From: Nocardioides sp.
GTDB taxonomy: Bacteria > Actinomycetota > Actinomycetes > Propionibacteriales > Nocardioidaceae
DNA length: 19,355 bases
Assembly: GCA_021166815.1 (NCBI GenBank)
Contig: JAJPEO010000020.1
Span: forward strand, 1-19,355
Direction of reading: 5' to 3'
Shown here: in pieces, positions 464-19,355 of the stretch
Numbering within the stretch: position 1 is the first letter of the stretch
Layout of the letters: each line of letters begins with the position of its first letter
Notes under the pieces: generated by a model
The model's database searches: none
The model's input: the letters and a program-made list of their open reading frames with translations, nothing else
What the model was told of the DNA's origin: nothing
Program-made: the position numbers and the translations under genes

Positions 464-470
464 CCGCGCC

Positions 471-1340: not shown

Positions 1341-1373
1341 GCCTGGGTGGAGGCGCCGCTGCTCGGGAAGTGG

Positions 1374-1457: not shown

Positions 1458-1478
1458 TGACGACGACGGGAGAGTGCC

Positions 1479-4400
1479 ATGCACGCATTCCCTCCGGGCC
1501 AGGGTCTGTACGACCCCCGACACGAGAAGGACGCCTGCGGTGTCGCGTTCGTCGCGACCCTGACGGGTGTGGCCAGCCACGACATCGTGGCCCGGGCACT
1601 GACCGCCCTGCGCAACCTCGACCACCGCGGTGCCGCGGGAGCCGAGACGAACTCCGGCGACGGCGCCGGCATCCTGATGCAGGTTCCCGACGCCTTCTTG
1701 CGCCAGGCGGTCGAGTTCCCGCTTCCCGAGGCCGGTCACTACGCCGTCGGGACCGCCTTCATCCCGGGCTCGGCCGACGAGGTCGACGCCGTCCGCCGCC
1801 AGATCGAGACGATCGCCATCGAGGAGGGCCTCAAGGTCCTCGGCTGGCGCGAGGTCCCCACCGACGACGCGGTGCTCGGCGCCACCGCGCGCAGCGTGAT
1901 GCCCACGTTCGTCCAGCTCTTCGTGTCCGCGGGCGGGCGACAGGGGATGGAGCTGGAGCGCATGGCCTTCTGCCTGCGCAAGCGCAGCGAGCACGAGACG
2001 TCCGCGTACTTCCCGACGCTGTCCTCGCGGACCCTGGGCTACAAGGGCATGCTCACCACCGAGCAGCTCGACGAGTTCTTCCCCGACCTCCGCGACGAGC
2101 AGATGGCCTCGGCGATGGCCGTGGTCCACTCCCGCTTCTCGACGAACACGTTCCCGTCGTGGCCGCTGGCACACCCCTTCCGCTTCATCGCCCACAACGG
2201 CGAGATCAACACCGTGATGGGCAACCGCAACTGGATGCGGGCACGGGAGGCCCTGCTCGACAGCGACCTCATCCCCGGTGACCTCGAGCGGCTGTTCCCG
2301 ATCTGCACCCCGGGGGCGTCGGACTCGGCCTCCTTCGACGAGGTGCTCGAGCTGTTGCACATGGGTGGGCGCTCGCTGCCGCACTCGGTGCTGATGATGA
2401 TCCCCGAGGCGTGGGAGAACCACGAGGGGATGGACGAGGCCAAGCGCGCGTTCTACGAGTTCCACTCCGCGCTCATGGAGCCGTGGGACGGGCCTGCCGC
2501 GGTGGTCTTCACCGACGGCACCCAGATCGGCGCGGTGCTCGACCGCAACGGCCTGCGCCCGGCGCGCTACTGGGTGACCGACGACGACCTGGTCGTGCTG
2601 GCCAGCGAGGTCGGGGTGCTCGACATCGACCCCGCCCGGGTCGTGCGCAAGGGTCGCCTGCAGCCCGGCCGGATGTTCCTCGTCGACACCGCGGAGCACC
2701 GCATCGTCGAGGACGAGGAGATCAAGGCGGCACTCGCGGCCGAGCACCCGTACGCGGAGTGGCTGCACGCCGGGCTGGTCAAGCTCGACGACCTCGACGA
2801 GCTCGAGCACATCGTGCACACGCACGCCTCGGTCACCCGCCGCCAGCAGATCTTCGGCTACACCCACGAGGAGCTGCGCATCCTGCTGTCCCCGATGGCC
2901 AACGGCGCCGGGGAGGCCATCGGCTCGATGGGCACGGACACGCCGATCGCCGCGTTGAGCGAGAAGCCGCGGCTGCTCTTCGACTACTTCACGCAGCTGT
3001 TCGCCCAGGTGACCAACCCGCCGCTGGACGCCATCCGCGAGGAGCTGGTCACCAGCCTCAACGGCTCCATCGGGCCCGAGGCCAACCTGCTCGAGCCCGG
3101 CGCGTCCTCGTGCCGACAGATCGTGCTGCCGTTCCCCGTCTTCTCCAACGACGACCTGGCCAAGATCCGCCACATCAACCGCAACGGCGACATGCCGGGG
3201 TTCCAAGTGCACGTGGTCCGCGGCCTCTACGAGGTCGAGGGCGGGGGAGCGGCACTGGCGGCCCGCCTCGAGGAGCTCTGTCAGGAGGTCTCGGCCGCGA
3301 TCGCCGACGGCGCCCGCATCATCGTGCTGTCAGACCGCCACTCCACCCAGGAGCTGGCCCCGATCCCGTCGCTGCTGCTCACCGGCGCCGTGCACCACCA
3401 CCTCGTGCGCGAGAAGACCCGCACCCAGGTGGGCCTGCTCGTGGAGGCCGGTGACGTGCGCGAGGTGCACCACGTCGCCCTGCTGGTCGGGTTCGGCGCC
3501 GCCGCCGTCAACCCCTACCTGGCCATGGAGTCGGTCGAGGACCTCGCCCGACAGGCCTACTACGTGAAGGTCGACCCCGAGAAGGCCGTCGCCAACCTGA
3601 TCAAGGCGCTCGGCAAGGGCGTGCTCAAGGTGATGTCGAAGATGGGCGTGTCGACGGTCGCGTCCTACACCGGGGCGCAGATCTTCGAGGCGATCGGACT
3701 CTCCCCCGAGGTCGTCGACGCCTACTTCACCGGCACCACGTCCCGCCTGGGCGGCGTGGGCCTCGACGTCATCGCCGAGGAGGTGGCCCGGCGCCACGCC
3801 ACGGCCTACCCCCGGGGCGGGATCGCTCCCTGGAACCGTGAGCTGGAGATCGGCGGCGAGTACCAGTGGCGCCGCGGCGGCGAGCCGCACCTGTTCGACC
3901 CCGAGACGGTGTTCCGCCTGCAGCACTCCACGCGCACCGGGCGCTACGACATCTTCCAGCAGTACACCCGCCGCGTGAACGAGCAGGCGGAGCGGCTGAT
4001 GACCCTGCGTGGGCTCTTCCGCTTCCGTGAGGGCGTTCGGCCGCCGATCGACATCGACGAGGTCGAGCCGGTCTCCGAGATCGTCAAGCGGTTCTCCACC
4101 GGTGCGATGTCGTACGGCTCCATCAGCCAGGAGGCGCACGAGACGCTGGCGATCGCGATGAACCGTCTCGGCGCCAAGTCCAACACCGGCGAGGGCGGCG
4201 AGGACCCGGAGCGGCTGTACGACCCCGAGCGGCGGTCCGCGATCAAGCAGGTCGCCTCGGGCCGGTTCGGCGTCACCTCGGAGTACCTCACCAACGCCGA
4301 CGACATCCAGATCAAGATGGCCCAGGGCGCCAAGCCGGGCGAGGGCGGACAGCTGCCCGGTCACAAGGTCTACCCGTGGGTGGCCAAGACCCGGCACTCG

Positions 4401-6014
4401 ACGCCGGGCGTGGGGCTGATCAGCCCGCCGCCGCACCACGACATCTACTCCATCGAGGACCTGGCCCAGCTCATCCACGACCTCAAGAACGCCAACCCGG
4501 CGGCCCGCATCCACGTGAAGCTGGTCTCCGAGACGGGCATCGGCACGGTCGCGGCGGGCGTCTCCAAGGCCCACGCGGACGTCGTGCTGGTCTCCGGCCA
4601 CGACGGCGGCACCGGCGCCTCCCCGCTCACCTCCCTCAAGCACGCGGGCGGTCCGTGGGAGCTCGGCCTGGCCGAGACCCAGCAGACGCTGCTGCTCAAC
4701 GGGCTGCGGGACCGCATCGTGGTGCAGGCCGACGGCCAGCTCAAGACCGGGCGTGACGTGGTGATCGCGGCCCTGCTGGGCGCGGAGGAGTACGGCTTCG
4801 CCACGGCTCCGCTGGTGGTGAGCGGCTGCATCATGATGCGCGTCTGCCACCTCGACACCTGTCCGGTGGGCGTCGCCACCCAGAACCCCGTCCTGCGGGA
4901 GCGGTTCAGCGGCAAGGCCGAGTACGTCGTGAACTTCTTCGAGTTCATCGCCCAGGAGGTCCGCGAGCTGCTGGCCGAGCTGGGCTTCCGCAGCCTGGAC
5001 GAGGCCATCGGCCACGTGGGTGTCCTCGACGTCCAGCCCGCCGTCTCGCACTGGAAGGCGTCGGGCCTGGACTTGACGCCGATCCTGCACGAGGCCTCGG
5101 CCCACGGCAGCCACGGCCAGTTCGCCGGCCAGGACCTGCGCTGCACCAAGGCGCAGGACCATGCCCTGGACAAGGCGCTGGACAACCAGCTGATCCAGAT
5201 GTGCGCCCCGGCGCTCGACCACGGCGAGCCCGTACGCGGCCAGGTCGCGATCCGCAACGTCAACCGCACGGTGGGCACGATGCTCGGCCACGAGGTGACC
5301 AAGCGCTACCGCGGTGAGGGCCTGCCCGAGGGCACGATCGACCTCACCTTCACGGGATCGGCCGGGCAGTCGTTCGGCGCCTTCGTGCCGCGCGGCATCA
5401 CGCTGCGGCTCGAGGGCGACGGCAACGACTACGTGGCCAAGGGACTCTCCGGTGGTCGCATCGTGGTGCGCCCGTCCCGCGAGGCTCCCTTCGACGGCAG
5501 CGAGGAGGTCATCGCCGGCAACACGATCGGCTACGGCGCGACGTCGGGCCAGGTGTTCCTCCGGGGCCGGGCCGGTGAGCGCTTCGGCGTGCGCAACTCC
5601 GGGGCCAGCCTGGTCGTCGAGGGCGTGGGCGACCACGCCTGCGAGTACATGACCGGGGGAGTCGTCGTGATCCTCGGTCCCACCGGCCGCAACGTCGCGG
5701 CCGGGATGTCCGGAGGCCGGGCGTACGTCCTCGACCTCGACCCGGCCCTGGTCAACCTCGAGCTGGTCGACCTGTCTCCCGTCGCGGGCGACGCGGCGGA
5801 GGAGCTGCGCGCCCTGGTGGTGCAGCACGCCGAGGAGACCGGGTCCACCGTGGCAGCAGCGTTGCTGGCCGAGTGGGACGCCGCCCTGGCCCGGTTCACC
5901 GAGGTGATGCCGGGTGACTACAAGCGGGTGCTCGACGCCCGGACGGAGGCCCTCGAGGAGGGCCTCGACGAGGACGAGGCTGCGGCCCGGATCATGGAGG
6001 TGCTTCATGGCTGA
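1479..6014 (+). CDS. gltB: Glutamate synthase (NADPH) large subunit
   Basis: With GltD this enzyme converts glutamine and 2-oxoglutarate to two glutamates, the assimilation half of the GS-GOGAT cycle. The product has 1511 residues, the usual size. The order of parts is: a class II glutaminase domain from about 20 to 430, whose nucleophile is Cys20 in DACGVAF, exposed after removal of a 19-residue propeptide; a central domain of about 475-770; the FMN synthase domain of about 850-1225, containing [10 protein letters not shown] near 872; a 3Fe-4S cluster motif CX5CX4C at Cys1117, Cys1123 and Cys1128; and the GXGXG beta-helix domain of about 1260-1460. The ATG at 1479 has a GGGAG ribosome site a few bases upstream. 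The stop overlaps the start of gltD by 8 bases, so the two subunits are translationally coupled. No key residue that I checked is missing. Confidence 0.98.
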
Positions 6015-7464
6015 CCCCAAGGGTTTTCTCAACCACGGCCGAGAGGTGGCCCGCCGCCGCGACGTCGCGGAGCGCGTCAACGACTGGAACGAGGTCTACC
6101 CCGAGGGGGTCGGCCGGGCGCTGCTGCCGATCATCAAGACCCAGGCGAGTCGCTGCATGGACTGCGGCATCCCGTTCTGCCACCAGGGGTGCCCGCTGGG
6201 CAACATCATCCCGGAGTGGAACGACCTGCTCTGGCGCGATGACTGGGACGAGGCGATGGACCGCCTCCACCTGACCAACAACTTCCCGGAGTTCACCGGG
6301 AGGCTGTGCCCCGCACCGTGCGAGACCGCGTGCGTCCTGGGCATCAACCAGGACCCCGTGACGATCAAGAACATCGAGGTGTCGATCGTCGAGCGCGCCT
6401 GGGGCTCGGGCTACGTCCGTCCCCAGGAGCCGGAGTGGCACTCGGGTCGCACCGTGGCCGTCGTGGGGTCCGGGCCGGCCGGCCTGGCCGCGGCCCAGCA
6501 GCTCACCCGGGCCGGGCACACCGTCGCCGTCTTCGAGCGCGCCGACCGCATCGGTGGCCTGCTGCGCTACGGGATCCCCGAGTTCAAGATGGAGAAGAAG
6601 TTCCTCGACCGACGGCTGGACCAGATGCGCCGGGAGGGCACGATCTTCCGCCCGGGCGTCGACGTCGGCGGGGACCTGACCGGCCAGCAGCTGCTCACGC
6701 GCTACGACGCTGTCGTGCTCGCGATGGGCGCCACGGACGCTCGCGACCTCCCGGTCCCCGGACGCGACCTGGGCGGCATCCACCAGGCGATGGAGTTCCT
6801 GCCCCAGGCCAACCGCGCAGCGCTGGGCGAGGAGGTGGAGGGACAGATCCTCGCCACGGGCAAGGACGTCGTGATCATCGGTGGCGGTGACACCGGGGCC
6901 GACTGCCTCGGCACCTCCATCCGGCAGCGAGCCCGCTCGATCACCCAGCTGGAGATCCTGCCCCAGCCCGGGACCGAGCGTCCCGAGGGGCAGCCGTGGC
7001 CGACGTACCCGATGCTGTTCAGGGTGTCCTCGGCCCACGAGGAGGGCGGCGAGCGCGTCTACGCCGTGTCGACGCAGGAGTTCGTCGGCGACGCCGACGG
7101 CCACGTCGCCGGCCTTCGCCTGGTCGAGGTCGACGGCTCGTTCCAGCCCGTGCCGGGCACCGAGCGGGAGATCCCCGCCCAGCTGGTGCTGCTGGCGATG
7201 GGCTTCGTGGGGCCGGAGCGTGCGGGCCTGCTCGAGCAGCTCGACGTCGAGCTCGACGAGCGGGGCAACGTCCGTCGCGACGAGTCGTACGCCTCGTCGG
7301 TCGACGGGGTGTTCGTCGCCGGGGACGTCGGTCGTGGCCAGTCGCTGATCGTGTGGGCGATCGCGGAGGGGCGCGGGGCCGCGGCGGCGGTGGACGCCTA
7401 CCTCACGGGGTCGACCTCGCTGCCGACGCCGGTGCTGCCCCACGAGCGACCGCTCGTCGTGTGA
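6007..7464 (+). CDS. gltD: Glutamate synthase (NADPH) small subunit
   Basis: GltD oxidises NADPH on FAD and passes electrons through its iron-sulfur clusters to the FMN site of GltB. The product has 485 residues. The N-terminal cluster-binding domain has CX2CX4CX3C at Cys50, Cys53, Cys58 and Cys62, then CX3CX3C at Cys101, Cys105 and Cys109. The FAD-binding GSGPAG loop starts at residue 154 and the NADPH-binding GGGDTG loop at 292. The C-terminal [17 protein letters not shown] segment closes the FAD site. The start ATG at 6007 lies inside the last codons of gltB, with GGAGG at 5996-6000 placed six bases before it. This start is better than the long upstream extension of the frame, which runs inside gltB and lacks family features. 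Confidence 0.98.
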
Positions 7465-7475
7465 GAGCCCGTCCT

Positions 7476-7503
7476 TTGAACGTTCCAAGCCGTTGTCTAG
7501 GGT
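7476..7503 (+). promoter_or_regulatory. Promoter of pyk giving a leaderless mRNA
   Basis: TTGAAC at 7476-7481 and TAGGGT at 7498-7503 are separated by 16 bases, a close match to an actinobacterial housekeeping sigma promoter. Transcription starting about 7 bases after the -10 box would fall on the G of the pyk GTG at 7510. It lies in the 45-base gap after gltD, which shows no terminator hairpin, so some read-through from gltBD is also possible. Confidence 0.65.
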
Positions 7504-7509
7504 GGTCGG

Positions 7510-8958
7510 GTGCGTAGAGCGAAGATCGTGTGCACCCTCGGACCGGCAGTGGACTCCCCGGAGCGCATCCGGGCCCTCGTGGACGCAGGGATGGACGTCG
7601 CCCGGCTCAACATGAGCCATGGGCGGTACGCCGACCACGAGCGCCTGTACCGCCTCGTGCGCGAGGCGTCGGATGCCACCGGCCACGCCATCGGCGTCTT
7701 CGCCGACCTCCAGGGGCCGAAGATCCGGCTGGGGAGGTTCGCCGACGGGCCGGTGACACTGGTCGCGGGGGACCGGTTCACCATCACCACGCGCGACGTC
7801 CAGGGCGACGCGACGACCAGCGGCACGACGTACGACGGCCTGCCCGGCGACGTCGGCGTGGGCGACCAGGTGCTGGTCAACGACGGCAAGGTCAGGCTGC
7901 GCGTGCTGTCCGTCGAGGACCAGGACGTCGTGACCGAGGTCGAGGTCGGGGGACAGGTCAGCGACCACAAGGGCATCAACCTGCCCGGGGTCCCCGTCTC
8001 CGTGCCGGCGCTGTCGGACAAGGACGTGGCCGACCTGCGCTGGGCGTTGCGGCTCGGCGTCGACTTCGTGGCGCTCAGCTTCGTACGCAGCGCGGCCGAC
8101 GCCGCCGACGTGCGCCGGGTGATGGAGGAGGAGGGCGTCCTCGTCCCCGTCATCGCAAAGATCGAGAAGCCCCAGGCGCTGGACAACATCGACGAGATCA
8201 TCGACGCCTTCGACGGGATCATGGTGGCGCGCGGCGACCTCGGCGTGGAGTGCCCGCTCGAGGACGTGCCCGTCCACCAGAAGCTGCTGGTGGACAAGGC
8301 GCGGACCAACGCCAAGCCGGTCATCGTCGCGACCCAGATGCTCGAGTCGATGATCTCGGCGCCGGCTCCGACCCGGGCCGAGGCCTCCGACGTCGCCAAC
8401 GCCGTCCTCGACGGGGCCGACGCGGTGATGCTCTCGGGCGAGACCTCGGTCGGCGACTACCCGGTGGAGACGGTGGAGACCATGGGCCGCATCATCACCT
8501 CGACCGAGGCCCACGGACTGACCCACATGGCCGTGATCGACGCGGAGCCGCGGACCAGGGGTGGAGTGATCGCCAAGGCCGCCACCGAGGTGGCCAGGAG
8601 GGTCGGGGCGAAGTACCTCGTCGCCTTCACCTCCAGCGGCGACTCCGCCCGGCGGCTGGCCCGCTACCGCGGCGAGACGCCCCTGCTGGCCTTCACCACC
8701 ACCGATCGTGTCCGTTCCCAGCTGTCGCTGACATGGGGGATGGAGACGTTCAAGATGGCAGAGGTGGAGCACACCGACGAGATGGTGACCCAGGTCGACG
8801 AGGCGCTGCTGCACATCGGCCGGGTGGAGGAGGGCGACCTCGTCGTCCTCATCGCCGGGAGCCCGCCCGGCATCCCCGGGTCGACCAACGCCTTGCGGAT
8901 CCACCGCATGGGCGATGCCATCAACGCCCTCGCACCCGCCTACCGCCGGGAGCGCTGA
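7510..8958 (+). CDS. pyk: Pyruvate kinase
   Basis: This enzyme converts phosphoenolpyruvate and ADP to pyruvate and ATP at the end of glycolysis. The product has 482 residues, standard for bacterial pyruvate kinases. Seen in order are KIVCTLGPA at the N-terminus, [17 protein letters not shown], the IAKIEKPQ strand, [12 protein letters not shown], and the [12 protein letters not shown] segment near the active site. The variable B domain lies between about 70 and 165, and a C-terminal regulatory domain follows. The GTG at 7510 is used: the protein starts exactly at the conserved beginning, there is no ribosome site, and a strong -10 box sits 6 bases upstream. Its 3' end meets the 3' end of a minus-strand tRNA gene nine bases later. 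Confidence 0.97.
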
Positions 8959-8967
8959 GGACTGCGG

Positions 8968-9040
8968 TGCCCCGGGTGAGATTCGAACTCACACTGGCGG
9001 TGGTTTGAGCACCGTGTCTCTGCCGTTGGACTACCGGGGC
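8968..9040 (-). tRNA. tRNA with anticodon CAA (Leu by anticodon) and an atypical short variable loop
   Basis: Read on the minus strand this forms a full cloverleaf. The acceptor GCCCCGG pairs with CCGGGGC over 7 bp, followed by A73. T8 and A9 precede a D stem of GTC/GAC with a GG in the loop. The anticodon stem CGGTG/CACCG is perfect and encloses the loop CTCAAAC, so the anticodon is CAA, which reads UUG. The variable loop is only CCAGT. The T stem GTGAG/CTCAC encloses TTCGAAT. CCA is not encoded. Bacterial leucine tRNAs are normally class II with a long variable arm, so this is a leucine anticodon on a class I body; its D arm resembles Glu or Gln tRNAs. The true amino acid is therefore uncertain. 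A TAGGGT box at 9060-9055 on the minus strand, about 15 bases upstream, suggests that it is transcribed. Confidence 0.8.
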
Positions 9041-9054
9041 GAATCGGCTCCGAA

Positions 9055-9060
9055 ACCCTA
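9055..9060 (-). promoter_or_regulatory. -10 box for the minus-strand tRNA
   Basis: On the minus strand this reads TAGGGT, the same hexamer as in the pyk promoter. A start point near 9048 would give a primary transcript with about 8 bases before the mature tRNA 5' end at 9040. No good -35 box is visible at the expected distance. Confidence 0.5.
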
Positions 9061-9067
9061 TCCCGAC

Positions 9068-9073
9068 TAGCCT
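9068..9073 (+). promoter_or_regulatory. -10 box for pdtaR, probably leaderless
   Basis: TAGCCT lies 7 bases before the GTG start of pdtaR, so transcription would begin on or next to the start codon. There is no ribosome site. The -35 region of this promoter must lie over the tRNA promoter on the other strand, so the two promoters overlap back to back. Confidence 0.5.
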
Positions 9074-9080
9074 TGCCGTC

Positions 9081-9695
9081 GTGAGCCAGCCCGTGGAATC
9101 CCAGTCCGCCCCCGCCCGGCGCGTGGTGATCGCCGAGGACGAGGCGCTGATCCGCATGGACCTCGCCGAGATGCTCGCCGAGGAGGGCTACGACGTGGTC
9201 GGCCAGGCGGGCGACGGCCAGCGGGCCATCGACCTGGCCAGGGAGCACCGGCCCGACCTCGTGGTGCTCGACGTGAAGATGCCGGTCCTCGACGGGATCG
9301 CCGCTGCCGAGGTGATCGCCGGCGAGCGGATCGCTCCTGTGGTGATCCTGACCGCCTTCTCCCAGCGCGAGCTGGTGGAGCGCGCCCGGGACGCCGGCGC
9401 GATGGCGTACCTGGTGAAGCCGTTCCAGCGCACCGACCTGGTCCCCGCCATCGAGATGGCTCTCAGCAGGTTCGCCGAGATCACCGTGCTCGAGAGGGAG
9501 GTCTCCTCGCTCCAGGACTCCCTCGCCACACGCAAGGCGGTCGACCGGGCCAAGGGTGTGCTGCAGGAGCGCATGGGGCTCTCGGAGTCCGAGGCATTCC
9601 GGTGGATCCAGAAGACGGCGATGGACCTGCGGCTGTCGATGAAGCAGGTGGCCGACGGAGTCGTCGAGCACGGGCCGGGGCCGGACGTCCGATAA
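9081..9695 (+). CDS. pdtaR: ANTAR-domain response regulator (PdtaR-like antiterminator)
   Basis: The product has 204 residues. A receiver domain covers about 14-130, with acidic residues in AEDEA near 20, the phosphoacceptor Asp64 in VVLDVKMP, the conserved Thr in VVILTAF and Lys in YLVKPF. After a short helical linker (EREVSSLQDSL) comes an ANTAR RNA-binding domain at about 150-195, seen as RKAVDRAKGVLQERMGLSES followed by the final helices. In mycobacteria PdtaR is phosphorylated by the kinase PdtaS, dimerises and binds paired RNA hairpins to prevent termination. No kinase gene is adjacent here, which matches the unlinked arrangement in mycobacteria. The GTG at 9081 is preferred because a -10 box sits just upstream; a second GTG at 9093 is possible. 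Confidence 0.94.
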   Translation: MSQPVESQSAPARRVVIAEDEALIRMDLAEMLAEEGYDVVGQAGDGQRAIDLAREHRPDLVVLDVKMPVLDGIAAAEVIAGERIAPVVILTAFSQRELVERARDAGAMAYLVKPFQRTDLVPAIEMALSRFAEITVLEREVSSLQDSLATRKAVDRAKGVLQERMGLSESEAFRWIQKTAMDLRLSMKQVADGVVEHGPGPDVR

Positions 9696-9703
9696 TCGCC
9701 CAC

Positions 9704-9719
9704 TGTGCCACAGGTCACA
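9704..9719 (+). promoter_or_regulatory. CRP/GlxR-like operator upstream of the binding-protein gene
   Basis: The sequence TGTGC-CACAGG-TCACA differs at one base from the actinobacterial CRP/GlxR consensus TGTGA-N6-TCACA. It lies between pdtaR and the lipoprotein gene. If the weak TAGGTT at 9768-9773 is the -10 box, the site centre is about 68 bases upstream of the start point, a spacing that suits activation. A similar site lies before livH. The left part also forms the 11-bp palindrome CTGTGCCACAG. Confidence 0.45.
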
Positions 9720-9767
9720 ACTTGGCAACAGCCGCTGCGGCCCCCGCCCAGCGGCCCCTCCGCGGGC

Positions 9768-9773
9768 TAGGTT
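9768..9773 (+). promoter_or_regulatory. Possible -10 box for the binding-protein gene
   Basis: TAGGTT lies about 55 bases before the ATG at 9828, but no clear -35 box precedes it. A weak core promoter of this kind would fit one that needs an activator at the CRP-like site upstream. Low confidence, by eye only. Confidence 0.3.
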
Positions 9774-9827
9774 GACTCGCGGGTGCAGCATCCGCGCGCC
9801 CGCATCACCTGAATGACCGGAGGGTTC

Positions 9828-11147
9828 ATGAAGCTCAACAAGACGAGCGCCCGACTCGGGGTGCTTGCCGTCGCGAGTGCGCTCGTGCTGGCTGGCTGCG
9901 GTGGCGATGGAGACACGGACGAGGACACCAAGTCCGGCGACAGCAGCACCTCTGCCGAGGGAGCCCAGCTCTATTTCGTGGACGGCAACACTGCCGACTA
10001 CTCGGCCGACTTCGACGAGGGAACCCTCGAGGGTGTGCGGGCGACGTACCCCGGCGCTGAGCTGGGCGACTCGTTCCGCGAGCGCATGCTCGAGGTCGAC
10101 CCCGCGCTGAAGGACTTCACCTACGGTCCGGAGTCCTACGACGCCACGATCATCGCTGCCCTGGCCGCAGTCGCTGCCAAGACCGACAGCGGCAAGGCGA
10201 TCGGCTCCAAGCTCCAGGACGTCACCTCGGGTGGGGAGAAGTGCACCGAGTTCAAGGCGTGCGTGGACCTGCTCAACGACGGCAAGGACATCGACTACGA
10301 CGGTGTCTCCGGCCCCATCGAGTTCAACTCCACGGGCTCGCCGTCCTCGGCCACCATCGGCATCTTCCAGTACGGCGCCGACAACAAGTACGCCCCGGAG
10401 AGCTACACGACCGGTGAGATCCCCGACGTGGACAGCGTCGCCGACAACCAGAAGATCTCCGGCAACATCCCCAAGGGCGACGGCACGCTGACCGTCGGCA
10501 CGCTGCTGCCGCAGTCGGGTGACCTCTCGTTCCTCGGCCCCCCGGAGTTCGCAGGCGTCGACCTGGCCGTAGGGGAGATCAACGCCGCCGGCGGTGTCAA
10601 CGGCAAGGACGTCAAGCAGGTCAAGGCCGACTCCGGTGACGGCACGCCCAACATCGCGCCGTCCGAGGCCGGCAAGCTGATCCGCGGCAAGGCCGACGTC
10701 GTCGTCGGTGCGGCGTCCTCCTCGGTGTCGCTGTCGGTGATCGACCAGATCACCCAGGCGGGCGTGGCCATGATCTCCCCGGCCAACACCTCGACCGCCT
10801 TCGACACCTACGCCGACCAGGGCCTGTACTTCCGTACGGCTCCCTCGGACGTGCTGCAGGGCTCCGTCATGGCCAACCTGGTCCAGCAGGACGGCTACGA
10901 CAACGTCGCGATCCTGGCTCGCCAGGACTCCTACGGCGAGGCGCTGGCCAACAACGTCAAGAAGTTCTTCGAGGAGGCCGGCGGCACCGTCGTGTCCTTC
11001 AAGCTCTACGACCCCAACGCGGCGAACTACACCGCCGAGGTCAACGACCTGAAGGCGCAGGACCCCGACGCGATCGTCCTGATCTCGTTCGACGAGACCA
11101 AGAAGATCATCCCCGAGCTGATCAAGGTCGGCCTGGGCCAGAAGTGA
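9828..11147 (+). CDS. ABC transporter substrate-binding lipoprotein of the LivJ type, circularly permuted
   Basis: The product has 439 residues and captures a solute, probably a branched-chain amino acid or similar compound, outside the membrane for LivHMGF. Residues 1-24 are a lipoprotein signal with lipobox LAGC (Cys24), then an acidic Ser/Gly/Asp linker to about 45. The rest is the type I periplasmic-binding fold in the wrong order. Residues 46-202 (QLYFVDGNTADY, then SYDATIIAALAA, two cysteines at 139 and 145, SGPIEFN, IGIFQYGADNKY) match the C-terminal part of LivJ-like proteins. Residues 217-439 (TLTVGTLLPQSG, LGPPEFAGVDLAVGEINAAGG, VVGAASSSVSLS, SPANTST, DSYGEALANN, DAIVLISFDET) match the N-terminal part. 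Each part occurs once. The ATG at 9828 is used, with GGAGGG just before it; the ATG at 9813 would add five residues and has no ribosome site. A hairpin terminator follows. Confidence 0.9.
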   Translation: MKLNKTSARLGVLAVASALVLAGCGGDGDTDEDTKSGDSSTSAEGAQLYFVDGNTADYSADFDEGTLEGVRATYPGAELGDSFRERMLEVDPALKDFTYGPESYDATIIAALAAVAAKTDSGKAIGSKLQDVTSGGEKCTEFKACVDLLNDGKDIDYDGVSGPIEFNSTGSPSSATIGIFQYGADNKYAPESYTTGEIPDVDSVADNQKISGNIPKGDGTLTVGTLLPQSGDLSFLGPPEFAGVDLAVGEINAAGGVNGKDVKQVKADSGDGTPNIAPSEAGKLIRGKADVVVGAASSSVSLSVIDQITQAGVAMISPANTSTAFDTYADQGLYFRTAPSDVLQGSVMANLVQQDGYDNVAILARQDSYGEALANNVKKFFEEAGGTVVSFKLYDPNAANYTAEVNDLKAQDPDAIVLISFDETKKIIPELIKVGLGQK

Positions 11148-11157
11148 CCCAGTGACA

Positions 11158-11197
11158 GTGAAGGGCCCCCGGGACATCGTCCCGGGGGCCCTTTCAC
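11158..11197. terminator. Strong hairpin terminator between convergent genes
   Basis: The arms at 11161-11174 and 11180-11193 (AAGGGCCCCCGGGA and its exact reverse complement) form a 14-bp stem with a five-base CATCG loop. The pairing extends outward through GTG/CAC with one bulged base. There is no long T run, as is common in high-GC actinobacteria. It starts 11 bases after the binding-protein stop and lies 55 bases from the livF stop, so it can serve both strands. Confidence 0.85.
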
Positions 11198-11251
11198 GTG
11201 CGCTGGTGGTGAGTGGTGCGCCGCCCCGTCCCGAGCGAGGCGGGTCGCGCC

Positions 11252-12080
<829 letters not shown>

Positions 12081-12088
<8 letters not shown>

Positions 12089-13010
12089 GGTTGTCTCCGT
12101 CCTCCTCGAGTGCCTGGTGGCCCTCGGCCTCGAGCACGTCCTCGAGCTGGGTGATGTCGGTGTCGTGGTGGGCGCCGAGGTAGGCGTCGATGACCCGCTG
12201 GTCGGACATGATCGAGTCCGGCGGGCCCTCGGCGATGACCTTGCCCTGGGCCATGACGACGACCCAGTCGGAGATGTCACGCACCATGTCCATGTCGTGC
12301 TCGACGAAGAGCACGGTCATGCCGTCCTCGCGCAGGGACTTCACGTGTCCCAGGAGCGACTGCTTGAGGGCGGGGTTCACCCCGGCCATCGGCTCGTCGA
12401 GCATGACCAGCTCGGGGGAGACCATCAGGGCCCGGGCCATCTCCAGCAGCTTGCGCTGGCCGCCGGAGAGCGAGCCGGCGAAGTCCGACTCTTTGGCGTC
12501 CAGCTTGAACCTGGCGAGCAGCTCGCGAGCCCGCGTGGTGTTGGCGGACTCCTGACCGCTCCACAGGGCCCGGAACGGCGCCGCGAGGAAGCCCTCGCCG
12601 CGCTGGCCGGTCGCCCCGAGGCGCATGTTCTCGAGCACAGTGAGCTTCGAGAGCACCTTCGTCAGCTGGAAGGTGCGGACCATGCCCATGCGGGCGACCT
12701 TGTGGGGGGCGACCTTGTTCAGGCTGGTGCCGTTGAAGGACCAGTCGCCGGTGTCGGGCTCGTCGAATCCCGTCAGCAGGTTGAAGAACGTCGTCTTGCC
12801 GGCGCCGTTGGGTCCGATCAGGGCGGTGATGACGCCGCGCTGGATCTCCAGGTGGTCCACCGAGACCGCGCGCAGGCCACCGAAGGTGCGGGTGATGTTG
12901 TCGGCGATCACGATCGGGTCCGGCTTGGGGGCACCGGGCTCGCGGGGGACGTCGGCCAGTGCCGCAGCGGCTCGGCTGGGGGTGGCGGTCATGTCGCTCT
13001 CAGCGGGCAT
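12081..13010 (-). CDS. livG: Branched-chain amino acid type ABC transporter ATP-binding protein LivG
   Basis: This is the second ATPase of the cassette, with 309 residues. A flexible Ala/Pro-rich N-terminus of about 30 residues and an acidic C-terminal tail of about 30 residues flank the ABC domain. Walker A GPNGAGKTT is at 66-74, LSGGQRK is the signature, LVMLDEPMAGVNP is Walker B in the form typical of LivG, and the switch histidine is in FVEHDMDMV. The ATG at 13010 overlaps the livM stop by 11 bases and has AAGGAG upstream. An in-frame ATG at 12992 is an alternative that would shorten the protein by six residues. The overlaps on both sides show translational coupling within livHMGF. Confidence 0.94.
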
Positions 13011-13980
13011 CGAGGGCGATCTCCTTCCGGTCTCCGAAGAGGCCCTGGGGGCGATAGATCATGAGCAGCATGAGCACGAGGCCGACCACCATGAACCGGA
13101 CGTTGGATGCCTGGTCGGTGCTCATCATGCTCGGCGGGATGATCGGGTTGTCGCCCGAGGCGAGCTGGACCAGCAGGCTGCCGATGGCCGAGAGGGCCCC
13201 CCAGAACAGCACCGCTCCCACGACCGGGCCGAGGATGCGGGCCGCGCCGCCGAGGATGAGCATCGTGAACGCGATGAAGGTGAAGTCTGCGTTGAAGCTG
13301 TCCGGCTGCACCGACGCCAGGCCGAGGGCGCCGATGAAGCCGCCGAAGGCACCGATGACGCCACCGAGGATCAGGGCCTGCATCTTGTACCAGTAGACGT
13401 TCTTGCCGAGGGAGCGTACGGCTTCCTCGTCCTCGCGGATGCTGCGCAGCACGCGACCCCAGGGGGAGCGCATCAGCAGCCAGAGGTAGACGCACACGAG
13501 CGCCACCAGGATCCATCCGACCGTCATGACCCAGAGGTCGTTGCGGCTGAAGGTGGCGAAGCTGGTCATGGTGTCGGGGTACGGGTTGAGCGAACGGAAC
13601 GTGGCGGTGAACCCACTGACTCCGTCGCGGGCGTGGAAGTAGTCCTTGAACGACGTGGAGAAGATCAGGCGCAACACCTCCGCCGCCGCGAGGGTCACGA
13701 TCGCGAGGTAGTCACCGCGCAGCTTCAGCGTGGGGATGCCGAGGATCAGCGCGAGGATGACCGCCGCGAGGATGCCGAGCAGCAGCGCCAGCACGAACGG
13801 GATGTCGAAGGACGCGATGCCGACGGCCATGGCGTAGGCACCGACCGCGACGAAGCCGGCCTGACCGAAGTTGAGCAGGCCGGTGTAGCCGAAGTGGATG
13901 TTGAGGCCGATCGCTGCCAGCACGTACGACAGCGCGAACGGGGAGATGGCGTCGTGGAACGCTCCCTGCAGGATTTCCAT
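13000..13980 (-). CDS. livM: Branched-chain amino acid type ABC transporter permease LivM
   Basis: This is an inner-membrane channel subunit that pairs with LivH. The product has 326 residues with about eight to ten hydrophobic segments. The conserved N-terminal region (ALSYVLAAIGLNIHFGYTGLLNFG) and GQAGFVAVGAYAMAV are typical of the BPD_transp_2 family. The cytoplasmic coupling segment is near SIREDEEAVRSLG and YKMQALILGG, followed by GGAARILGPVVGAV and the C-terminal RPQGLFG motif seen in LivM proteins. The ATG at 13980 has GAGGAGG a few bases upstream. It starts 18 bases after the livH stop. Confidence 0.94.
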   Translation of the reverse strand: MEILQGAFHDAISPFALSYVLAAIGLNIHFGYTGLLNFGQAGFVAVGAYAMAVGIASFDIPFVLALLLGILAAVILALILGIPTLKLRGDYLAIVTLAAAEVLRLIFSTSFKDYFHARDGVSGFTATFRSLNPYPDTMTSFATFSRNDLWVMTVGWILVALVCVYLWLLMRSPWGRVLRSIREDEEAVRSLGKNVYWYKMQALILGGVIGAFGGFIGALGLASVQPDSFNADFTFIAFTMLILGGAARILGPVVGAVLFWGALSAIGSLLVQLASGDNPIIPPSMMSTDQASNVRFMVVGLVLMLLMIYRPQGLFGDRKEIALDAR

Positions 13981-13998
13981 GGGTAGTCCTCCTCAGCC

Positions 13999-15312
13999 TC
14001 AGCCGACTCGTTCCTTGCGCCCGAGCAGGCCCTGGGGCCGCACGAGCAGGATGATGATCAAGAGCATCAGCGCGCCGGCGTTCTTCAGGTCCGACGGGAT
14101 GACCAGCGTGGACATCTCGATCAGCACGCCGATGATGAGCGCGCCGACCAGGGCGCCCCACACCGAGCCGAGACCACCGACGGTCACGGCGGCGAAGAGC
14201 AGCAGGAGCACCAGCTGGCCCATCTGGAAGGTGACTCCCAGGGAGAAGCCGAGGAAGACGCCCGCCAGCGATGCCAGCGCGGTGCCGACGATCCACACGA
14301 GCGAGATGACGCGGTTGACGTTGATGCCCGTGGAGCTGGCCAGGGCGGGGTTGTCGGCCACCGCCCGGGTCGCCCGGCCCAGGCGCGTGCGGCTCAGGGC
14401 GAGGGTGACGACGGTGATCGCGATGACCGAGACCCCGGCCATGACCAGGTCACGGGTGGTCACGGTGACGCCCAGGAAGTCGTAGCCCGACGGCGTGACG
14501 TACTCGCGGTAGTTCTGGGTGCGGCCCTCGGTGAAGTACTGGAAGAGGTTGCGCAGGAAGAACATCAGGCCGATCGAGACGATCATCGTCGCGATCAGGC
14601 CGGTGCCGCGTCGGCGCAGCGGTCGCCACAGGCCGGCGTCCTGGGCCCAGCCGAAGAGGCCGCCCAGGACCACGGCCACCACCGCGGCGGCCGCGAACGG
14701 CCAGCCGAAGGTGGAGTTGAAGAGGAACGCGATGAGGGCGCCGAAGGTGACCAGCTCGCCGTGGGAGAAGTTCGTCAACCCGGTGGTGCCGAAGATCATC
14801 GACAGGCCGAGCGCGGCCATCGCCATGATGATGCCGAAGAGCAGGCCCTGGTAGAGCAGCTGGGGGACCCGGTCCCACTTGGTCTGCACCTGCCGCGTCG
14901 ACTCGCCGATCATGAAGGTGATCGGCACGCTGCCGAGCGAGCTCGGGGTGACCTTCTCCTCCGCCTCCTGGCCCTCGCGCAGTCCCACGTCGTCGGGGAG
15001 CGTGTCCTCGTCGATGGCGACGGTGTACTCGCCGTCCACGCGGGGGACCTGGATCTGGATGCGGCCGGAGTCGTCGGAGGTGCCCGTGAACTCCTCGCCG
15101 TCCGGCGTGGTCACGGTGATCTCGACGCCCGGGACCGGCTCACCCGCGTTGCGCATGGTGCCGGTGAAGGTGATGTCGCCCTCGGCCGGCGCTGCGGCGG
15201 ACGCGGGCACGCCTGCCCAGGCCACCAGGCCCAGGAGGAGGCCCACGACCACGGCGATGGCTGGGGCGACGCGACGTCGGCGGGGCCGGCGGTGATCGGA
15301 GGGTGGCTGCAT
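13999..15312 (-). CDS. livH: LivH-type ABC transporter permease with an N-terminal extracytoplasmic domain
   Basis: The product has 437 residues, about 140 more than ordinary LivH. It begins with an arginine-rich n-region and a hydrophobic stretch ending in ASAAA (about 1-42), which looks like a signal peptide or first membrane anchor. Residues of about 45-140 form a hydrophilic, beta-rich segment (DITFTGTMRNAGEPVPGVEITVTTPDG, then SDDSGRIQIQVP and GEYTVAIDE, shown here in pieces) like a carboxypeptidase-regulatory or CnaB-like Ig fold. The permease core starts near 150 with LLYQGLLFGIIMAMAALGLS and carries TGLTNFSHGELVTFGA, GVLIEMSTLVIPSD and the terminal RPQGLLG. I chose the ATG at 15312 because AGGA lies five bases before it; an ATG at 15324 would add four residues. 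It is the first gene of livHMGF. Confidence 0.92.
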   Translation of the reverse strand: MQPPSDHRRPRRRRVAPAIAVVVGLLLGLVAWAGVPASAAAPAEGDITFTGTMRNAGEPVPGVEITVTTPDGEEFTGTSDDSGRIQIQVPRVDGEYTVAIDEDTLPDDVGLREGQEAEEKVTPSSLGSVPITFMIGESTRQVQTKWDRVPQLLYQGLLFGIIMAMAALGLSMIFGTTGLTNFSHGELVTFGALIAFLFNSTFGWPFAAAAVVAVVLGGLFGWAQDAGLWRPLRRRGTGLIATMIVSIGLMFFLRNLFQYFTEGRTQNYREYVTPSGYDFLGVTVTTRDLVMAGVSVIAITVVTLALSRTRLGRATRAVADNPALASSTGINVNRVISLVWIVGTALASLAGVFLGFSLGVTFQMGQLVLLLLFAAVTVGGLGSVWGALVGALIIGVLIEMSTLVIPSDLKNAGALMLLIIILLVRPQGLLGRKERVG

Positions 15313-15377
15313 GTGGATCCTCATCGACGACGGACAGGGCCCGTGTGAAGCGGGGGTCTGGTGCGCTGAACGTGAGG

Positions 15378-15407
15378 AGCATACAGATCGCGGGTGATCC
15401 AGTTCAC
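15378..15407 (-). promoter_or_regulatory. Possible promoter of livHMGF
   Basis: On the minus strand GTGAAC (15407-15402) and TATGCT (15383-15378) are 18 bases apart, giving a leader of about 58 bases before the livH ATG. The -35 box lies inside the CRP-like site at 15393-15408, so binding there would more likely block than help this exact promoter; a start point a few bases further downstream would change that reading. Confidence 0.4.
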
Positions 15408-15431
15408 ATCCCATGGCAACGATCGGATCAC
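15393..15431. promoter_or_regulatory. CRP/GlxR-like site and inverted repeat upstream of livH
   Basis: GGTGA-TCCAGT-TCACA at 15393-15408 matches TGTGA-N6-TCACA except at the first base and has a perfect GTGA-N6-TCAC core. The left arm also takes part in a second symmetry, GTGATCC (15394-15400) with GGATCAC (15425-15431). The shared 7-mer TGGCAAC follows the CRP-like site both here (15414-15420) and before the binding-protein gene (9723-9729). The remaining bases from 15432 to 15531 show nothing I can name. Confidence 0.45.
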
Positions 15432-15531
15432 GAGTTGGATCGTCGATATCCGGACACGGCGAAGGGCAGGGTCGCGCCCCCGTGGCACCGGTGTCGTGGC
15501 GCCTCGGATGAGGGTTCTTCTTTCGTAGGAC

Positions 15532-15562
15532 TTGCCCACCGCCCGGGGACACGGCGTATGGT
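15532..15562 (+). promoter_or_regulatory. Possible promoter of the GNAT gene
   Basis: TTGCCC at 15532-15537 and TATGGT at 15557-15562 are separated by 19 bases, slightly long. The start point would be near 15569, about 60 bases before the chosen ATG. Confidence 0.35.
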
Positions 15563-15628
15563 CGTGGGAGTCGGTCGGGCCGGTCCCGATCACGGGGGTC
15601 GGCAGTCGACATGTTGTGGGAGCAGTGG

Positions 15629-16201
15629 ATGAGCCGTTCGCCGGTCACCGTGCGGTCTGTTGCGTCCGAGGACGTGGCTTCCCTCCGAGAGCTGTGGGTG
15701 GACATCCTGCGTCGGGGTGCCATCGACGAGCAGCTGACCGATGTCGCCGAGATCGTGGCTGCCGCCATCGCCGACCCAGACCGTGCGATCGCCGTCGCTG
15801 AGTACGACGGCCAGATCGCGGGTGCGGTCTTCCTCCAGGCCACCACGCTGACGCCGCTCAACCTGGAGCCGGCCGTGCTGGCCGTCTCGCCCCATGTCCT
15901 CCCGGCCTTCCGGCGCAAGGGAGTCGGGTCCGCCCTCATCGAGGCGGCCGTGCGGTTCGCCGAGCAGCGCGGCATCGCCCACGTCATGACGGCCGCCAAC
16001 TCCGACGCCCGCGACGCCAACCGCTTCATGGCCCGGTTGGCCTTCGCGCCCCAGGCCACGCTGCGAGCCGCGACGACCAGTGCCGTACGCGCTCGACTCA
16101 GCTCGCGCCGCTCGGCCTCGTTCGCGGCGAGCGCCACCACCCGTCAGATCGACCGGGTGCTGGCCGCGCGTCGCAGCCGGCGCGAGCGCGTTCCGGGCTG
16201 A
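15629..16201 (+). CDS. GNAT-family N-acetyltransferase
   Basis: The product has 190 residues. The N-terminal VTVRSVASEDVASLRELW is the usual first strand and helix of GNAT enzymes. A central strand pair (AVAEYDGQIAGAVFLQ) leads to the acetyl-CoA-binding motif A, seen as PAFRRKGVGSALIEAAVRFA, and then HVMTAANSDARDANRFMARLAF. The substrate cannot be told; small molecules, protein N-termini or lysines are all possible. After the domain there is an arginine-rich tail of about 45 residues, ending RRSRRERVPG, which is unusual and could bind nucleic acid or be disordered. The ATG at 15629 has GGGAG six bases upstream; the ATG at 15611 in the same frame would add six residues. It is convergent with the thioesterase gene, 21 bases away. 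Confidence 0.82.
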   Translation: MSRSPVTVRSVASEDVASLRELWVDILRRGAIDEQLTDVAEIVAAAIADPDRAIAVAEYDGQIAGAVFLQATTLTPLNLEPAVLAVSPHVLPAFRRKGVGSALIEAAVRFAEQRGIAHVMTAANSDARDANRFMARLAFAPQATLRAATTSAVRARLSSRRSASFAASATTRQIDRVLAARRSRRERVPG

Positions 16202-16222
16202 CCCGCCGCAGCCCCGCGCTGC

Positions 16223-16666
16223 TCAGATCCCCGGGTTGTCGAGCAGGGCGCAGGTGATCCTCGACGTGCAGAGCCGTCGTCCCTGCTCGTCGGTGATGAC
16301 GACCTCGAAGCACGTCGAGCTGCGCCCGAGGTGCACGGGGGTGGCGACGCCGGTGACGATCCCCGAGGTGGCGGAGCGGTGGTGCGTGGCGTTGATGTCG
16401 ACGCCCACCGCGATCTTGCTGGGGTAGCCGTGGAGCACCGACCCGATCGAGCCCAGGCTCTCGGCCAGCACCACCGACGCGCCGCCGTGGAGCAGTCCCA
16501 TCGGCTGGGTGTTGCCCTCCACGGGCATGGTCCCCACGATGCGCTCACGGGAGATCTCGACGAGCTCGACGCCCATCTTCTCGTTGAGCCCGCCCATGCC
16601 CTGGGGCATGAGCTCGAGGAACTGCTCGATGGTGAGGTCGTCGATCGAGATGGGGGAGTGCGTCAT
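16223..16666 (-). CDS. Hotdog-fold acyl-CoA thioesterase (PaaI / YdiI-MenI type)
   Basis: The product has 147 residues, a single hotdog domain that would act as a dimer or tetramer in the cytoplasm. The helix segment GLLHGGASVVLAESLGS (residues 57-73) contains the catalytic glutamate at 69, and INATHHRSA (91-99) is the typical next strand. The pattern closely resembles E. coli YdiI, which hydrolyses 1,4-dihydroxy-2-naphthoyl-CoA and other aryl-CoA thioesters. A role in menaquinone synthesis is therefore possible, but no men gene is nearby and related enzymes have other substrates. The ATG at 16666 has no ribosome site and may be leaderless. The gene diverges from polA across a 79-base gap. 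Confidence 0.9.
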   Translation of the reverse strand: MTHSPISIDDLTIEQFLELMPQGMGGLNEKMGVELVEISRERIVGTMPVEGNTQPMGLLHGGASVVLAESLGSIGSVLHGYPSKIAVGVDINATHHRSATSGIVTGVATPVHLGRSSTCFEVVITDEQGRRLCTSRITCALLDNPGI

Positions 16667-16733
16667 GTGCCCATTGTCGGGTACGCACCCGGCAACCGGT
16701 CATCCGCCACCTCGTGCCGTCGGTGCGGCCGGA

Positions 16734-16739
16734 TAGAGT
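16734..16739 (+). promoter_or_regulatory. -10 box for polA, probably leaderless
   Basis: TAGAGT is followed by six bases and then the GTG at 16746, the same geometry as at pyk. There is no ribosome site. A convincing -35 box is not visible. Confidence 0.5.
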
Positions 16740-16745
16740 CGCCGG

Positions 16746-19355
16746 GTGGCTGCACCGAGTGACTCGTCCCGTCCCCGACTCCTCCTCCTCGACGGCCACT
16801 CGTTGGCCTATCGGGCGTTCTTCGCCCTGCCGGTGGACAACTTCTCCACCGCGGAGGGCCAGCACACCAACGCGGTCTACGGGTTCACCTCCATGCTCGT
16901 CAACGTGCTGCGCGACGAGCAGCCCACCCACGTCGGCGTCGCCTTCGACCGGTCCCGCCAGACCTTCCGCCTGGAGGAGTACGCCGAGTACAAGGCCAAG
17001 CGCAACAAGACCCCGGACGAGTTCCGCAGCCAGCTGCCGCTGATCCAGCGGATGCTCGACTGCTTCCACATCGGCCACCTCGACATGGAGGGCTACGAGG
17101 CGGACGACATCATCGCGACGCTCGCGACGCAGGCCGGGGCCCAGGGCCTGGAGGTGCTGATCCTCACCGGCGACCGCGACTCCCTCCAGCTCGTCGACGA
17201 GGGCGTCACGGTGCTCTACCCCACGCGCGGCGTCTCGGAGCTGGCCCGGATGACCCCGGCGGCGGTGGAGGAGAAGTACGGCGTGCCTCCGCACCGCTAC
17301 CCCGAGCTGGCGGCGCTGGTGGGTGAGGACTCCGACAACCTCCCGGGCGTGCCGGGCGTGGGCCCCAAGACCGCGGCCAAGTGGCTGGTCCAGTACGACG
17401 GCCTCGACAACCTCATCGACCAGGTGGACCGCATCGGCGGCAAGGCCGGCGACAACCTCCGGGCCCACCTGGGCGACGTGATCCGCAACCGTCGCCTCAA
17501 CGCGCTGGTGCGCGACCTGTCGTTGCCCGTCGGGCCCGCCGACCTGGGGCGCAGCGAGTGGAACCGCGCGGAGGCCCTGCAGCTGCTCGACGAGCTGGAG
17601 TTCCGTGGCGAGCTCCGCACGCGCATCCTCGACGTGATCGATCCCGGCGTCGAGCCCGAGGTCGACCAGGGCGGGTTCGAGATCGACGGCACCGTGCTCG
17701 GACCGGGCGAGGTCGCGGCCTGGCTGGCCGAGCACGGACGGGACGGCCGCGTCGCGGTCGACGTCCACGGCACCTGGCGAGCGGGCACCGGGGAGGTGCG
17801 CTCGCTGGCGCTGGTGGCGGAGTCCGGGGCGGCCTGCTGGCTGGACGTCGCGGAGGTGACGCCGGACGACGACGCGGCGCTGGGAGCGTGGCTCTGCGAC
17901 CCGGCCGTGCCGAAGCTGGTCCACGATGCCAACGGACCCCTGCTGGCGCTGGCCGCCAGGGGCTGGGGCCTGGCCGGGCTGGAGGTGGACACCGCGGTCG
18001 CTGCCTACCTGGTCCGCCCTGACCAGCGCTCCTACGACCTCGCCGACCTCACCCTGCGCTACCTCAAGCGAGAACTGCGCTCCGACCAGGGCGACGCCGA
18101 CCAGCTCAGCTTCGACATGGACGAGGCCTCGACCGCGCGCGACGCCGCCATGGTCCGCGCACGAGCGGTGCTCGACCTCGCGGAGGTGCTCCTCGAGGAG
18201 CTCGAGGCCCAGGGCGCGACGTCGCTCATGAAGGAGGTGGAGCTCCCGCTGGTGCAGGTGCTGGTCGACATGGAGGCGGTCGGCATCGCCGTCGACACCG
18301 ACTACCTCGAGGGGCTCGAGGCGGAGTTCGCCGCGTCGGTGCGCCAAGCGGCCGAGGACGCCTACTCCGTCATCGGCAAGGAGATCAACCTCGGCTCGCC
18401 CAAGCAGCTGCAGGTGGTCCTGTTCGACGAGCTCGACATGCCCCGGACCAAGCGCACCAAGACCGGCTGGACCACCGACGCCGATGCGCTCCAGCAGCTG
18501 TTCGAGAAGACCGAGCACCCGTTCCTGCAGCACCTGCTGCGCCACCGGGACGTGAGTCGCCTGCGGCAGACGGTCGAGGGGCTGCTCAAGACCGTGGCGC
18601 CGGACGGGCGCATCCACACGACCTTCAACCAGATCATCGCCGCGACCGGGCGGCTCTCCAGCACCGACCCCAACCTGCAGAACATCCCGATCCGCACCGA
18701 GGCCGGCCGACGCATCCGCGAGGCCTTCGTCGTGGGCGAGGGCTACGCCTCGCTGCTGACGGCCGACTACAGCCAGATCGAGATGCGCATCATGGCCCAC
18801 CTCTCCGAGGACGCCGGGCTCATCGACGCCTTCCGTTCCGGCCTGGACTTCCACTCCGTCACCGCGGCCCGGGTGTTCGGTGTCCCCGCCGGGGAGGTCT
18901 CCACCGAGCAGCGCGCCAAGATCAAGGCGATGAACTACGGCCTGGCCTACGGACTCTCCGCGTACGGCCTGAGCCAACAGCTCCACATCACCCCGGGCGA
19001 GGCGCGCGAGCTCATGGACGAGTACTTCGAGACCTTCGGCGGGGTGCGCGACTACCTCGCCGGCGTGGTCGACGAGGCCCGCCGCTCGGGGTTCACCGAG
19101 ACCATCATGGGGCGGCGTCGCTACCTTCCCGACCTCACCAGCGACAACCGTCAGCGGCGTGAGATGGCGGAGCGGATGGCGCTCAACGCGCCGATCCAGG
19201 GTTCGGCCGCCGACCTCGTCAAGGTGGCGATGCTCCGCGTCGACCGGGCGCTCGCAGCCGACGGGCTGCGCTCGCGGATGCTGCTGCAGGTCCATGACGA
19301 GCTCGTGTTCGAGGTGTTCCCGGGCGAGGAGGAGCGCCTCGAGGCGCTGGTGCGG
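16746..19355 (+). CDS. polA: DNA polymerase I (3' end beyond the window)
   Basis: 870 codons are present and only the last few dozen are missing. The N-terminal 5'-3' exonuclease (about 10-300) has RLLLLDGHSLAYRAFFAL, GYEADDIIATLA, LTGDRD and the helix-hairpin-helix GVPGVGPKTAAKWL. The middle domain (about 310-500) is a degenerate 3'-5' exonuclease: the first motif reads D339-V-H341 where an active enzyme has D-x-E, so proofreading is probably lost, as in mycobacterial and Taq enzymes. The polymerase domain has motif A DYSQIE (Asp674), motif B ending in NYGLAYG with Tyr731 where E. coli has Phe762, and motif C QVHDELV (His850-Asp851). It fills gaps in repair and removes Okazaki primers. The start GTG at 16746 has a -10 box six bases upstream and no ribosome site. 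It diverges from the thioesterase gene. Confidence 0.97.
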   Translation, partial: MAAPSDSSRPRLLLLDGHSLAYRAFFALPVDNFSTAEGQHTNAVYGFTSMLVNVLRDEQPTHVGVAFDRSRQTFRLEEYAEYKAKRNKTPDEFRSQLPLIQRMLDCFHIGHLDMEGYEADDIIATLATQAGAQGLEVLILTGDRDSLQLVDEGVTVLYPTRGVSELARMTPAAVEEKYGVPPHRYPELAALVGEDSDNLPGVPGVGPKTAAKWLVQYDGLDNLIDQVDRIGGKAGDNLRAHLGDVIRNRRLNALVRDLSLPVGPADLGRSEWNRAEALQLLDELEFRGELRTRILDVIDPGVEPEVDQGGFEIDGTVLGPGEVAAWLAEHGRDGRVAVDVHGTWRAGTGEVRSLALVAESGAACWLDVAEVTPDDDAALGAWLCDPAVPKLVHDANGPLLALAARGWGLAGLEVDTAVAAYLVRPDQRSYDLADLTLRYLKRELRSDQGDADQLSFDMDEASTARDAAMVRARAVLDLAEVLLEELEAQGATSLMKEVELPLVQVLVDMEAVGIAVDTDYLEGLEAEFAASVRQAAEDAYSVIGKEINLGSPKQLQVVLFDELDMPRTKRTKTGWTTDADALQQLFEKTEHPFLQHLLRHRDVSRLRQTVEGLLKTVAPDGRIHTTFNQIIAATGRLSSTDPNLQNIPIRTEAGRRIREAFVVGEGYASLLTADYSQIEMRIMAHLSEDAGLIDAFRSGLDFHSVTAARVFGVPAGEVSTEQRAKIKAMNYGLAYGLSAYGLSQQLHITPGEARELMDEYFETFGGVRDYLAGVVDEARRSGFTETIMGRRRYLPDLTSDNRQRREMAERMALNAPIQGSAADLVKVAMLRVDRALAADGLRSRMLLQVHDELVFEVFPGEEERLEALVR

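Follow-up and report, generated by a model that had tools for sequence, protein, structure and literature searches.

In a 19,355-nucleotide stretch of Nocardioides sp. DNA (assembly GCA_021166815.1, contig JAJPEO010000020.1, positions 1 to 19,355; hereafter the window), the gene at positions 9828 to 11147 encodes a substrate-binding protein (SBP) whose two portions stand in swapped order. Very probably it is a naturally occurring, genuine circular permutant of a LivJ-type (HAAT) lipid-anchored binding protein and the probable receptor of a LivFGMH importer, a form that originated once in Nocardioides and has been passed around the genus within a gene cassette. We observed the altered order of the parts, their conservation, an orthologous locus in other genomes, a single Nocardioides clade of permuted sequences and a confident fold model. 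An original prediction, made from the letters of the window, had proposed a circular permutation with new chain ends in lobe 2, and this holds against the orthologues, the gene neighbourhood, the trees and the structure model.

The gene is a single uninterrupted open reading frame (ORF) of 439 residues, open throughout as the prediction had stated. In a Pfam search, positions 1-217 of the 343 in Peripla_BP_6 aligned to residues 220-438, and the first ~200-220 residues of the closest solved structures aligned to the same C-terminal stretch. Thus, the opening portion of the family stands last in this chain. Residues 46-198 correspond to the closing portion of canonical orthologues in a rotated alignment, in agreement with the order of hidden Markov model (HMM) matches. 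The canonical proteins end where the permuted chains continue, via a linker, into the start of the N part, and the cut falls between a helix ending in GLG and the strand QLYFVDGN. The segments of the gene are as follows.

9828..9899, forward strand: signal peptide and lipobox, residues 1-24 (LAGC, which we take to be the lipobox motif, with lipidated Cys24), from the sequence and the invariance of C24
9900..9962, forward strand: low-complexity spacer, residues 25-45 (modelled at pLDDT <50 over residues 1-42)
9963..10421, forward strand: C part, residues 46-198, the canonical closing portion (QLYFVDGN ... SYDA ... SGPIEFN ... IGIFQYG ... YTTGEI), from the rotated alignment and HMM order
10422..10478, forward strand: linker, residues 199-217, bridging the former C and N ends; canonical proteins end ahead of it
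10479..11147, forward strand: N part, residues 218-439, the canonical opening portion, with the new C end GLGQK and the stop codon, from Pfam positions 1-217 of 343 and residues 1-221 of the structure 3ipc

Homology to HAAT/LivJ-type proteins (PF13458) covers both lobes, the N part by Pfam and the C part by alignment to canonical orthologues; the topology is not that of canonical type I (Cluster B) proteins, since the C part precedes the N part. Codon use is similar in the two parts, in line with the uniformity first noticed. HMM coordinates give the linker, originally put at about 203-216, a length of 17-19 residues across 17 permuted sequences from Nocardioides. As in exported lipoproteins of this type, residues 1-24 carry the export and lipidation signals, and C24 is invariant in 116 aligned homologues, over which mean column identity is 70% and further residues are invariant (alignment A1, 116 of 121 proteins; alignment A2 held 83 of the 121).

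The original prediction had also proposed modelling the structure, and AlphaFold2 returned a confident fold for the permuted chain (pLDDT 85, pTM 0.83). On structural comparison, residues 218-439 of the model matched residues 1-221 of 3ipc, and the new ends fall after 3ipc residue 221, a position that by the LivJ topology lies in lobe 2. Because the lipobox now joins the fold there, the lipid tether would enter lobe 2 instead of lobe 1. Both parts may be expected to assemble into the usual two-lobed flytrap; whether a tether on lobe 2 brings any advantage is a matter for speculation. Were the gene a decaying relic that no longer specifies a working receptor, neither the open frame, intact lipobox, invariant residues and high column identity nor the confident fold would be expected, nor would its fixation over a clade beside intact livFGMH genes; we regard such decay as highly improbable.

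A search of 215 genomes from the genus, which scored the 8 best candidates of a first look at each, found a colinear permuted protein in 17, that of the window included; each of the 17 genomes gave one match at E 1e-20 or better. The original prediction had cautioned that a rearrangement introduced during assembly or data handling, inside the gene, would look the same. The genome of the window resembles a metagenome-assembled genome (MAG) and is indeed fragmented (400 contigs, 89.7% complete), but the same order recurs in the 16 other genomes, six of them single-contig, on many independent contigs and in named isolates. These independent genomes refute the artefact, to which we assign a negligible probability. 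Nor is the permuted order that of the whole family, which would have refuted the prediction: the 62 Nocardioides loci that were classed by position, out of 120 genus genomes with matches, comprise 17 permuted and 45 canonical ones, and one genome (G216) has its match outside the locus. The C part did precede the N part in 240 of 240 proteins from two sequence searches and in 120 of 120 from a third, among the matches listed, which are the best matches of permuted queries and thus uninformative on the permuted share of the family.

A scan of named genomes yielded 20 loci, 6 permuted and 14 canonical. The named permuted carriers include Nocardioides rubriscoriae DSM 23986 and Marmoricola sp. Leaf446, to which source names add N. 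scoriae, N. donggukensis and N. dongxiaopingii. Canonical alleles ~60% identical to the permuted one occupy the same gene neighbourhood in sister species. Two near-identical stretches (L145 and L146) come from MAGs titled Chloroflexi and Flavobacteriales, one of which is probably mislabelled or contaminated.

Permuted relatives also occur outside the genus. They are present in Acidimicrobiia-type genomes, where the new ends lie 20 residues further on (cut II), and are widespread in a family resembling Micromonosporaceae; the first label derives from near-identical named MAGs, the second from named homologues with identities of up to 94%. In the family of genome G439, 186 genomes had matches, and the 40 with weak matches alone (E 1.6e-48 to 5.9e-32) were left unclassed. 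We built an 87-row tree from 16 of the 45 canonical and 11 of the 17 permuted Nocardioides loci plus chosen others, and a 69-row tree from a further selection that included the 14 Micromonosporaceae-like rows used in approximately unbiased (AU) tests. In both, the Nocardioides permutants nest inside Nocardioides canonicals (support 99). On the 69-row tree the permuted or canonical label needs four changes.

Similar linkers had first suggested a common origin, against which the trees spoke. A single ancient permutation common to the Nocardioides, Micromonosporaceae-like and Acidimicrobiia-type proteins, followed by different trimming of the ends and by a return to canonical order or its transfer, would fit linkers that are alike and of similar length and cuts just 20 residues apart, and the union of cut II with the Micromonosporaceae group, whose branches are long, was rejected only weakly (p 0.021). 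Uniting Nocardioides with cut II (p 4.7e-95) or with the Micromonosporaceae group (p 8.5e-6) was, however, rejected by the AU test; the nesting among Nocardioides canonicals is at odds with it, and a return to canonical order would require a second permutation. We therefore hold one ancient event to be improbable. Cut II as one clade was not rejected with 87 rows (p 0.49) and rejected with 69 (p 0.0037), where the constrained search may have been stuck in a poor tree. Taken together, the sequence trees give a single origin of the permutation within Nocardioides; two origins in the family are well supported and three or four likely. Similar permutations thus recur independently elsewhere in Actinomycetota, in neighbouring lobe 2 loops, which goes beyond what was originally predicted. 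The cut-II proteins of L148 and L150 (genomes G588 and G332) group with the canonical L190 and not with the remaining cut-II rows (95), and may represent a further independent permutation. In another locus (L251, 5804-7156), a permuted SBP gene of Micromonospora type has no liv genes beside it; its neighbours by eye resemble genes for enoyl-CoA hydratase and 3-hydroxyacyl-CoA dehydrogenase.

It is conceivable, although we lean somewhat against it, that circular permutation is both recurrent and selected here, at least three lineages (Nocardioides, Micromonosporaceae and the Acidimicrobiia type) having each broken the chain independently somewhere in the same 20 residues of lobe 2 and thereby shifted the tether to that lobe. 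If so, either selection acts on the geometry between anchor and permease, or this stretch is the sole place where the fold opens without loss.

The permuted gene most likely came about when a tandem duplication, in frame, lost its outer parts, permutation by duplication being the default reading. Tandem copies of the canonical gene would have arisen first and fused in frame across a short linker; the N part of the first copy, behind the signal peptide, would then have been lost, as would the signal peptide and C part of the second, and the permuted gene would have spread through the genus along with livFGMH as the conserved flanks recombined. The duplication model expects the same parts in rotated order as the product and predicts partly duplicated intermediates (PMC3320104); compared with that general scheme, the signal peptide here had to be retained or regained at the front. 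Tandem copies do occur at the locus: one of 71 loci, in an order-level relative (L102, genome G049), has two adjacent, separate ORFs that match the SBP N part, beside pdtaR. The same arrangement could favour a chimaera, in which N and C parts from two different paralogues fused and mimic the permutation of one gene. When each part was analysed alone (L187 and L091 omitted), however, the Nocardioides permutants joined the same Nocardioides canonicals, in a 15-row group for the N part (99) and a 12-row group for the C part (84), and we judge a chimaera very improbable.

Several points weigh against a genuine permutant that arose by duplication and then spread. No fused or overlapping intermediate was found in 71 loci, and none of these had a second C-part match. 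The sequential structure aligners, VIA-align included, covered residues 218-439, and the C part was placed by sequence only; its near-absence from the VIA-align rows is uninformative on its fold. With the best 8 candidates scored per genome, a diverged canonical paralogue could still occur in permuted genomes. Lastly, the trees come from quick searches, and some rows of the tree of flanking proteins are gappy.

The SBP gene lies in a conserved row, pdtaR, SBP, livF, livG, livM, livH, thioesterase and polA, which in the window is made up, beside the SBP gene itself, as follows.

9081..9695, forward strand: PdtaR-like response regulator with ANTAR domain, the upstream flank of the cassette (Pfam, synteny)
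11252..12280, reverse strand: livF, importer ATPase (Pfam ABC_tran); the true start lies inside the ORF and is uncertain
12081..13010, reverse strand: livG, importer ATPase (Pfam ABC_tran and BCA_ABC_TP_C)
13000..13980, reverse strand: livM, permease (Pfam BPD_transp_2)
13999..15291, reverse strand: livH, permease whose N-terminus carries an additional domain; its start is uncertain (BPD_transp_2 matched residues 147-415 of the scanned piece)
16223..16666, reverse strand: thioesterase, the downstream flank of the cassette (Pfam 4HBT, synteny)
16746..19355, forward strand: presumably polA, by its sequence family, a downstream flank extending past the window end (ORF, synteny)

Two BPD_transp_2 permeases and two ATPases are thus encoded beside the binding-protein gene, as is usual for HAAT/LivJ-type systems. 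On the basis of its family and these neighbours, the permuted protein is probably the receptor of the adjacent LivFGMH importer and would bind an amino acid or amide in its cleft and deliver it to LivHM.

The row is complete in 16 of the 17 permuted loci, the 17th stopping at a contig end. In each of the 45 canonical loci, pdtaR is found on the stretch too. The SBP gene is co-oriented with pdtaR in 22 of them, 4 of which have the liv genes ahead of it; in the other 23 (L086-L096, L106, L111 and L115-L124) the whole SBP-livFGMH cassette is turned around with respect to pdtaR, and to polA in those loci that show it. Loci thus differ not just in allele but also in orientation, and the permuted SBP is one among several alleles.

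Permuted loci form one clade in the SBP tree (98) and in the LivFGMH tree (100). In a tree of the flanking proteins Pyk, PdtaR, GltD and PolA, the permuted genomes are scattered over the genus, and well-supported branches force 10 changes. In one pair of genomes (G209 and G032) the flanking proteins are 92-98% identical and the cassette proteins 46-82%, while three near pairs of permuted genomes are similar throughout, flanks and cassette. Because flank and cassette trees conflict, we infer that whole cassettes have been replaced by recombination in the conserved flanks. The permuted form is fixed in its clade and seems to move together with livFGMH, as a cassette that can be exchanged, points that the original prediction had not reached.

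A natural permuted type I binding protein was already known. The report on TpMglB-2 (Tp0684) of Treponema pallidum describes a natural circular permutant of a lipid-anchored type I binding protein, proposed as 'Type Ic / Cluster Bc', which binds D-glucose and closes on its ligand; its permuted part is just 13% identical to the canonical counterpart, and the authors left convergence open and raised the idea of a tether-position advantage for their own case (PMC4990184). Both proteins are natural permutants of the same general kind, ours by predicted structure. In contrast to TpMglB-2, which belongs to the glucose/galactose (MglB) family and has its new ends in the N lobe, with a fourth cross-over as the mark of 'Type Ic', the Nocardioides protein belongs to the LivJ/HAAT family (Peripla_BP_4 E 0.14 against Peripla_BP_6 5e-35) and is cut in lobe 2, after 3ipc residue 221. 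It further differs in having ~60% identical canonical alleles at the same neighbourhood and in the recurrence of its permutation. With LivJ/HAAT proteins such as 3ipc (Atu2422) and 4gnr (LivJ) it shares homology of both parts, the lipobox and adjacent livFGMH, and departs from them in the swapped order, the anchor on lobe 2 and the extra linker. Among titles and abstract openings in open-licence PubMed Central (PMC), we found no natural permuted substrate-binding protein other than TpMglB-2. New here are the family, the lobe, the cut, the unpermuted alleles at the same locus and the recurrence.

Natural circular permutations are usually visible only between remote relatives, which puts the event itself out of reach of study. 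In this case, sister species carry alleles of one gene, some permuted and some not, in one shared neighbourhood and with one type of transporter, similar events recur in the family, and such pairs of cultivable soil bacteria make the route of permutation, its neutrality and the effect of the shifted anchor on the importer directly testable. Routine annotation hides the rearrangement: source names say substrate-binding protein or similar, and the standard family model gives half a match.

Two minor features of the locus deserve mention. The extra N-terminal domain of LivH (14890-15291, reverse strand) sits behind a likely signal sequence and resembles a carboxypeptidase-regulatory (prealbumin-like) fold (E 3.4e-5, under the Pfam cut-off). 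It was matched in 59 of 66 LivH frames (weakest E 0.07), all in Nocardioides cassettes; the 7 unmatched frames belong to outgroup-type loci and L105. A link between this domain and the permutation was rejected, since Nocardioides cassettes carry the domain whether their SBP is permuted or canonical. At 11163-11191, where the SBP and livF genes converge, reading by eye showed two perfectly matched 13-base arms around a 3-base loop, an inverted repeat that resembles a two-way terminator; its T run is short, and a terminator scan did not list it.
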